Shown here piece after piece: positions 52,824 through 53,842 of a stretch of 64,000 nt of DNA (the stretch's first letter is position 1; each line of letters starts with the position of its first letter). Source of the stretch: Collinsella sp. An307 (lineage in GTDB: Bacteria > Actinomycetota > Coriobacteriia > Coriobacteriales > Coriobacteriaceae). The notes beneath the pieces are model-generated. The model saw nothing but the letters and a program-made list of their open reading frames with translations, ran no database searches and was not told the DNA's origin. Where the stretch lies: assembly GCF_002161805.1 (NCBI RefSeq), contig NZ_NFIP01000005.1, positions 1 through 64,000 on the forward strand, written 5' to 3'. The position numbers were made by a program, and so were the translations under genes.

Positions 52824-53684
52824 TTACGCGCTTGCGGCTTGAATCTGGGCGAGCACACGCTCCATGGTCTTGTCAATGTTGGTGCGTTTGAGCTCGCATT
52901 CCCAGATGGTGATGACCGTCCAGCCCGCCTCCTCAAGCGCCGCTACCGCAGCGCGATCGCGCTCAACGTTGCGGGCGAATTTTGCCTCCCAGAAGGCGGT
53001 GTTGCGCTTGGGAACGCTCGGGTGGCAGTGGGGGCAGCGATGCCAGAAGCAGCCGTTCACAAAGATGGCGATCTTGCGCCCGGGGAAGGCGATGTCGGGC
53101 CTGCCGGGCGCCTTGGCCCACTGCAGGCGGTATCCCGTGAGCCCAGCGGCGCGCAGACGCTGGCGTACGAGCAGCTCGGGCTTAGTGTTGGCGCGCTTAT
53201 TGCCCTTCATGGACTTGCGGATGGCGGCGCGGCGGCGGACGAGTTCTCCCTCGACCGCGTGCTCGGCATCGTCTCCTTTTGCAAGGGCCTCTACAAGGCC
53301 GGTGTCCGCGGGCATCCAAGCAAGCTCGCCGAGGCGCTCGCGCTCGACCCAGCGCAGGCCGAGCTGCCGGTCGGAGAGGCGCGGGCTTCCTGCGGTAATC
53401 TCGCAGAAGTAGCACTCCATCGAAAGGTGGAAATCGGGATAATCGTATTCGACGGTATAGAACGCCTGCAGGTTCTCGACGGTAACATCGAGTTCCTCGG
53501 CAAGTTCGCGCCGGCAGGCGTCCTCGGGTGTCTCGCCGCGCTCGACCTTGCCGCCGGGGAATTCCCACAGGCCGCGCATCTCTCCGTAGCCGCGTTGCAC
53601 GGCGAGCACCTCGGACGTAGCGGACGATTCGGCCGTGCGGCGGATGATGCCGGCGGCAACATGTATCGTCTTCAAGGTACTCAC
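52824..53684 (-). CDS. NUDIX hydrolase fused to a Vsr-type endonuclease
   Basis: A 286-residue two-domain protein. Residues 1-135 are a MutT-like NUDIX domain with the box GGKVERGETPEDACRRELAE at 44-63 continuing EELDV. Residues 150-286 match very-short-patch-repair endonucleases: NTKPELLVRQRLRAAG near 166, GRPDIAF with the metal-binding Asp near 197, and FVNGCFWHRCPHCHPS near 208-223. The first part would clean oxidised nucleotides, and the second would nick DNA at T:G mismatches. Fusion joins nucleotide sanitation with mismatch repair. No cytosine methyltransferase lies in the window. Confidence 0.9.
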   Translation of the reverse strand: MSTLKTIHVAAGIIRRTAESSATSEVLAVQRGYGEMRGLWEFPGGKVERGETPEDACRRELAEELDVTVENLQAFYTVEYDYPDFHLSMECYFCEITAGSPRLSDRQLGLRWVERERLGELAWMPADTGLVEALAKGDDAEHAVEGELVRRRAAIRKSMKGNKRANTKPELLVRQRLRAAGLTGYRLQWAKAPGRPDIAFPGRKIAIFVNGCFWHRCPHCHPSVPKRNTAFWEAKFARNVERDRAAVAALEEAGWTVITIWECELKRTNIDKTMERVLAQIQAASA

Positions 53685-53842
53685 CTCCCGCCGGCGCTGA
53701 ATCTTTTAGGTTCCGAGGTCCTATGCTAGCAAAATCGTATCGCCGCCGCCCCGCTTCGTGTCCGCGCGAATCGCTATGATAAGGCATAAACAACGCATTC
53801 TATGGCGCCGCGCGCGGGCGCCATTGTGAGAGAGGCACTGCT

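Follow-up and report, generated by a model that had tools for sequence, protein, structure and literature searches.

Closest described enzymes and the fused gene

Both component families of the protein analyzed here, Nudix and Vsr, are already known. On the nucleotide side, the Bacteroides fragilis 5-Me-(d)CTP pyrophosphohydrolase Q5LBB1 (structure 3gwy) acts with kcat/Km values of 4.8e6 on 5-Me-dCTP, 4.4e6 on 5-MeOH-dCTP and 8.5e4 on 5-OH-dCTP (PMC5158307), and MutT2 and Orf135 also act on 5-methyl-dCTP, a nucleotide that Q5 DNA polymerase inserts like dCTP (PMC10742078). On the DNA side, SauUSI, a PLD-helicase-DUF3427 enzyme, cuts m5C and hm5C DNA (PMC3874153). The gene studied here, a minus-strand open reading frame within positions 52824-53684 of a 64-kb stretch of Collinsella sp. 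An307 DNA (the window), joins a Nudix domain to a Vsr domain. Its Vsr half resembles V.EcoKDcm in sequence (1e-22 to the E. coli structure 1cw0) and in its catalytic Asp, His, wedge residues and zinc cysteines, whereas the fusion protein carries a Nudix domain, has neither a neighbouring nor an obligatory Dcm, and replaces the zinc ligand H71 by a Cys-rich CPxC arrangement. Its Nudix half finds its best fold match in 3gwy, with which it shares the pocket residues F, M, C, W, A and D, although that enzyme is stand-alone and 34% identical, and its E-H is replaced by D-R-Q or E-Q-Q in the fused clade. E. coli NudG/Orf135 and mycobacterial MutT2 share the fold and an Asp at the position of MutT N119 but are only 31-40% identical, and the YPDFHLSM strand motif is absent from NudG. 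E. coli MutT shares the Nudix fold and box at 33% identity, yet the fused protein has D for N119 and F for R78 and falls below the equivalog cut-off. SauUSI-type type IV enzymes with an adjacent Nudix gene use the same Nudix subfamily, represented by sister paralogues within this bacterial family, but the partner there is a separate PLD-helicase-DUF3427 nuclease acting on 5mC DNA rather than a mismatch endonuclease. No paper on a Nudix-Vsr fusion was found in open-access full text, with matches judged largely by title and term counts; the fusion, its methylase-independent conservation throughout the family and the association of Nudix with 5mC nucleases appear undescribed in that literature.

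The fusion is real. NUDIX and Vsr share a single reading frame, uninterrupted by a stop or frameshift, as the earlier note had proposed, and the alternative of a frameshift or two genes was looked for and found absent. The ratio dN/dS is 0.03-0.37 in each domain, well below 1, indicating purifying selection on both halves. Since the domains are fused in 32 of 36 same-family genomes and dN/dS is well below 1 in both, the fusion is not due to chance. The single chain of the earlier note was borne out, but its length of 286 residues and its GTG start are probably not right. This first in-frame GTG (53684) overlaps the Shine-Dalgarno sequence GGGAGGTG (53682-53689), six bases past which lies a TTG (53675) at the equivalent start position of close relatives. 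Because the GTG overlaps the ribosome-binding site and the TTG fits both the spacing and the relatives, the TTG is likely the better start, giving a protein of about 283 residues. The features are as follows.

52824..53675, minus strand: Nudix-Vsr fusion gene with the likely TTG start, 283 residues plus stop (a single open frame in which both Pfam domains exceed their cut-offs)
53682..53689, minus strand: Shine-Dalgarno sequence GGGAGGTG, 6 bases before the TTG and overlapping the GTG start of the earlier note (from sequence; the arrangement with the TTG is repeated in relatives L052 and L055-L057)
53283..53675, minus strand: Nudix domain, residues 1-131 (PF00293, 3.3e-18; fold match to 3gwy and MutT2)
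53484..53552, minus strand: Nudix box, residues 42-64, GX5EX7REUXEEXXU, with Asp63 for the final Gly (alignment of 27 homologues)
53304..53306, minus strand: Asp124, aligned with Asn119 of MutT (31 of the 32 fused proteins carry Asp here, as do NudG, MutT2 and 3gwy; the MutT proteins of E. coli and K. pneumoniae carry Asn)
53226..53282, minus strand: flexible linker, residues 132-150 (alignment; pLDDT < 50 at 136-162)
52827..53225, minus strand: Vsr domain, residues 151-283 (PF03852, 2e-18; TIGR00632, 2.6e-33; E. coli Vsr 1cw0, 1e-22)
53094..53096, minus strand: Asp194 in GRPD, equivalent of the Vsr catalytic Asp51 (alignment to 1cw0; invariant)
53040..53054, minus strand: GCFWH, residues 208-212, with the wedge, the catalytic His and the first zinc-ligand Cys (alignment to 1cw0)
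52896..52898, minus strand: Cys260 in WEC, last zinc-ligand Cys (invariant)

Alignment of 27 homologues revealed no loss of catalytic residues in either domain. Against the motif GX5EX7REUXEEXGU, all metal-binding Glu residues and the Arg are retained, with G42, E48, R56, E57, E60 and E61 invariant. The complete NUDIX box of the earlier note was thus borne out, except that its final Gly is Asp63, at a position that varies among relatives (Asp, Gly, Gln, His or other). The Vsr half scored 114.8 bits against TIGR00632 (cut-off, 97.85) and 66.4 against PF03852 (cut-off, 27), placing it in the Vsr family. The previously reported Asp and His/Cys motifs were confirmed by alignment to 1cw0: Asp51, His69, the Phe67/Trp68 wedge and the zinc cysteines correspond to D194, H212, F210/W211 and C209/C214/C217/C260, respectively. 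Among the homologues F210 is more than 90% conserved, and the remaining key Vsr residues, including C209, W211, H212, C214 and C217, are invariant. The AlphaFold model (pTM, 0.50) contains two confident domains separated by a disordered stretch at residues 136-162 (pLDDT < 50). Among relatives, the linker ranges from about 10 to about 100 residues, with Ala/Asp/Lys-rich expansions in several same-family species and one same-genus species (alignment columns 135-243).

Distribution, cytosine methylases and mismatch repair

Of 60 sampled relatives, 46 have Vsr, and none of the 36 genomes of the same family is without it. In 32 of these 36 it is joined to Nudix, the other four representing one genus (g6), and it is unfused in every other Coriobacteriales family possessing it. 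Carriers include Collinsella tanakaei, C. phocaeensis and C. aerofaciens, whose fused protein is annotated merely as 'DNA mismatch endonuclease Vsr'. The fused loci lie mostly at one syntenic place; 31 of 32 have at least one neighbour in common with the window (an ABC-FtsX transporter pair, HtpG or a histidine kinase). In our trees, the fused Vsr domains group in a single clade (support, 99), as do the fused Nudix domains (99), the latter within a clade (98) that includes stand-alone Nudix proteins of the same order. Most simply, these trees would be explained by one fusion event, in an ancestor shared by most of the family, between a Nudix gene native to the order and a Coriobacteriia-type Vsr. 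The Nudix-Vsr fusion is a family trait and not a one-off. No such fusion was found outside the family among 396 sampled genomes of the phylum, and no full-length one in phages; the plasmid collection yielded one full-length match, from Collinsella itself.

The earlier note had pointed to the absence of a Dcm-type methylase from the window. A genome-wide PF00145 search, which like our other statements on the An307 genome rests on protein-family searches, upheld this absence and returned a single match, of Sau3AI type, on another contig away from the fusion. This match (L118:3469-6147, contig C1) is an 892-aa chain combining a Sau3AI/MutH-like restriction domain (4.8e-119) with a C5-cytosine methyltransferase (2.9e-58). 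The absence is, however, no peculiarity of the window: 10 of the 36 family genomes, including 7 of the 32 with the fusion, have no PF00145 match, so Vsr retention is untied to a resident C5 methylase. Nor does the locus fit Dcm-coupled very short patch repair, marked by a cognate C5 methylase in the operon or genome, as there is none nearby and only the Sau3AI-type one elsewhere. By contrast, an unlinked Vsr-like gene in Caulobacter harms cells that lose the cognate methylase (PMC12907096). The unfused Vsr genes of Eggerthellaceae, Atopobiaceae and other Coriobacteriia (L159-L190) mostly have no C5 methylase within their 3 kb flanks.

This independence could also mean that the Vsr half serves chiefly as a T:G mismatch endonuclease of general scope, replacing absent mismatch repair, with the Nudix domain as a secondary add-on. 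The sampled Coriobacteriales lack MutS_I, apart from one 3249-aa ORF in the same-family genome G028, and lack full-length NucS, for which all matches were weak fragments; this agrees with a report that all analyzed Coriobacteriia are without NucS and MutS-MutL (PMC5290159). Vsr is present in every family genome regardless of C5 methylases, and a gonococcal Vsr acts on T:G whatever the context (PMC6116569). Nevertheless, many other Coriobacteriales without MutS are also without Vsr, which would then not be an essential replacement, and a nick that always removes T would be mutagenic for half of the T:G errors of replication. Genome composition carries no clear Vsr signature: CTAG observed/expected ratios are 0.28-0.58 in genomes with Vsr versus 0.50-0.60 in those without, and CTWGG shows no trend with Vsr presence. 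A stand-in role of this kind seems distinctly unlikely. The G028 frame (contig C11; L099/L100) holds two MutS domain I matches in a genome otherwise without MutS.

Substrate of the Nudix half

The earlier note had suggested 8-oxo-dGTP as a substrate, which would make the Nudix half a MutT-type diphosphatase and the fusion a link between oxidative-damage sanitation and Vsr repair. Several features are consistent with this: the Nudix box is intact, MutT is among the best NCBIfam matches, and the motif EYDYPDxH is shared with E. coli MutT. Moreover, the fused domain is the sole MutT-like Nudix found in the An307 genome, and MutY-like glycosylase matches occur in every genome, all below cut-off. 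A DUF3427 search found no SauUSI-like gene in An307; given this and the lack of another MutT-like Nudix, the fused domain could have assumed the 8-oxo-dGTP duty in this organism. However, the protein scored 85.9 bits against the MutT equivalog TIGR00586, below its cut-off of 97.9, and Asp124 occupies the place of Asn119, a residue that contacts 8-oxoguanine in MutT. Asp stands at this position in 31 of the 32 fused proteins. In addition, the closest structure is a 5-Me-dCTP hydrolase, and the partners of the subfamily are 5mC-related genes. The 8-oxo-dGTP reading of the Nudix half is probably wrong, and we consider a MutT-type role unlikely.

Other lines point to 5-methyl-dCTP. The pocket residues F82, M86, C91 and W120 agree with 3gwy and differ from MutT, and Foldseek placed 3gwy first and MutT2 bound to 5-methyl-dCTP fourth. 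The NudG equivalog NF007834 was also missed (56.8 bits; cut-off, 156). Overall identities to E. coli MutT (33%), 3gwy (34%) and NudG (31%) are alike, within 31-43% for the reference enzymes, and the Nudix tree, which does not group the fused clade with the 5-Me-dCTP enzymes, leaves the substrate undecided; for these reasons, the putative 5-methyl-dCTP assignment draws on pocket residues, fold rank and partner genes.

Partner genes and proposed role

The theme common to the partners of this Nudix subfamily is 5-methylcytosine. In Coriobacteriales, where Nudix and DUF3427 positions were searched independently, 8 of the 10 DUF3427 genes face a convergent, stand-alone sister Nudix gene at a distance of up to about 160 bp (G001, G002, G003, G019, G027, G036, G042 and G052). 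Five of these pairs were read as loci and proved SauUSI-like; for three of the nucleases, a type IV methyl-directed identity was confirmed. Independent searches in Bacteroidia located 17 Nudix places, not counting the index genome, and a SauUSI-like type IV enzyme lies next to 8 of them. The pairing of SauUSI-like genes with Nudix seems undescribed. Fused genomes without a C5 methylase make up 4 of the 6 with a SauUSI-like gene versus 3 of the 26 others (hypergeometric p ~0.01), a skew toward methylase-free genomes expected if C5 methylases and SauUSI-like genes are incompatible. In the Coriobacteriaceae loci L113-L117, the SauUSI-like DUF3427 type IV gene and the small Nudix gene stand tail to tail, and in Bacteroidia the two are co-directional.

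Bacteroidales gut genomes contain at least 17 loci with Vsr and this Nudix subfamily within about 3 kb, among 592 retrieved stretches; as they were retrieved via the Vsr peptide FVNGCFWH, they say nothing on the frequency of Nudix near Vsr. Several of them also hold C5 methylases together with EcoRII, HaeIII or HpaII nucleases, or an McrBC gene. A Prevotella locus (L164) encodes a 306-aa Nudix-Vsr fusion that falls inside Bacteroidales clades on both trees and is, on that phylogenetic placement, a second, independent fusion. The statement that Bacteroidales Nudix relatives are nearly all beside Vsr was dropped, every such locus having been pulled in by FVNGCFWH. In independent searches, 1 of 17 new Bacteroidia Nudix places lay beside a Vsr fragment, and none of 20 Vsr genes in a random Bacteroidia sample had a Nudix neighbour, so the Nudix-Vsr link is not general. 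What stands, judging from the trees, is two or three independent Nudix-Vsr associations.

These associations bear on whether two unrelated housekeeping genes were joined once and kept without a functional link. The long and variable linker, the independence of the domains and the single origin within the family would suit such a neutral event, but the second fusion in Prevotella and the repeated adjacency of this Nudix subfamily and Vsr in Bacteroidales argue against it, and we regard it as hardly probable at all. The presence of subfamily paralogues beside type IV restriction enzymes and R-M systems would also fit an anti-phage role, in which the Nudix half drains phage-made 5-methyl or 5-hydroxymethyl dCTP and Vsr handles the DNA that escapes. 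The subfamily matches the PADLOC candidate model PDC-S07 as well; however, this model is unspecific, and the fused gene is conserved in a syntenic position, unlike a gene of a mobile island, making an anti-phage role quite improbable. As a sign of defence, PDC-S07 was rejected, since E. coli MutT and NudG match it likewise.

Our preferred reading, held with evenly balanced confidence, is that the Nudix half would destroy 5-methyl-dCTP ahead of its incorporation into DNA, and that nicking of the T:G arising from deaminated 5mC would fall to the Vsr half. Salvage of methylated DNA would yield 5-methyl-dCTP, which the Nudix domain would hydrolyze, probably along with 5-hydroxymethyl-dCTP, to the monophosphate, keeping salvaged methylated cytosine from polymerization into DNA. 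Any 5mC that still entered DNA, or was made by a methylase, would deaminate to T opposite G; the Vsr domain would then nick beside the T, and a polymerase would repair the strand, restoring C:G. Breakdown of foreign, host or phage DNA could possibly supply the methylated nucleotide, and the Nudix and Vsr pair would for this reason be useful without a resident C5 methylase. Fusion would give equal dosage of both activities; because the linker is long and variable and the two domains fold independently, we infer a benefit from co-production or co-localization rather than from substrate channelling. The coupling of two sources of mutation put forward in the earlier note keeps its two layers of mutation avoidance but probably not the combination of oxidized guanine with deaminated 5mC; more likely, both layers concern 5-methylcytosine, at two stages of the same problem.

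A broader proposal, to which we lend slightly less than even credence, is that a family without MutS-MutL and NucS has a core, methylase-independent, one-chain enzyme against 5mC, acting on both the nucleotide pool and T:G. This enzyme would then be one example of a larger class, hitherto undescribed: a single Nudix subfamily working alongside nucleases that sense or repair 5mC (Vsr, SauUSI-like, R-M) and keeping 5mC from host DNA. If true, this would explain the persistence of Vsr in genomes without a cytosine methylase, give 5-methyl-dCTP hydrolase a cellular purpose, and provide a candidate mismatch nuclease for the Coriobacteriia, reported to be without both known mismatch-repair systems. 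It would also suggest a general rule in which a nuclease attacking or repairing 5mC DNA is paired with a Nudix enzyme that removes 5-methyl-dCTP, so that salvage does not mark host DNA.

Further gene arrangements were observed around this subfamily. A nucleoside 2-deoxyribosyltransferase-like gene occurs in Bacteroidales R-M loci with Vsr and Nudix (L231:9929-10357, L234:12399-12875 and L224:2-361), possibly as a further step disposing of modified dNMPs. In one Bacteroidia genome, a Vsr fragment, a Nudix gene and the beginning of a type IV restriction gene lie in a row (L287:6768-8465), and at L294:1035-3389 a chain of 784 aa joins the same Nudix subfamily to a Schlafen group 3 helicase domain.
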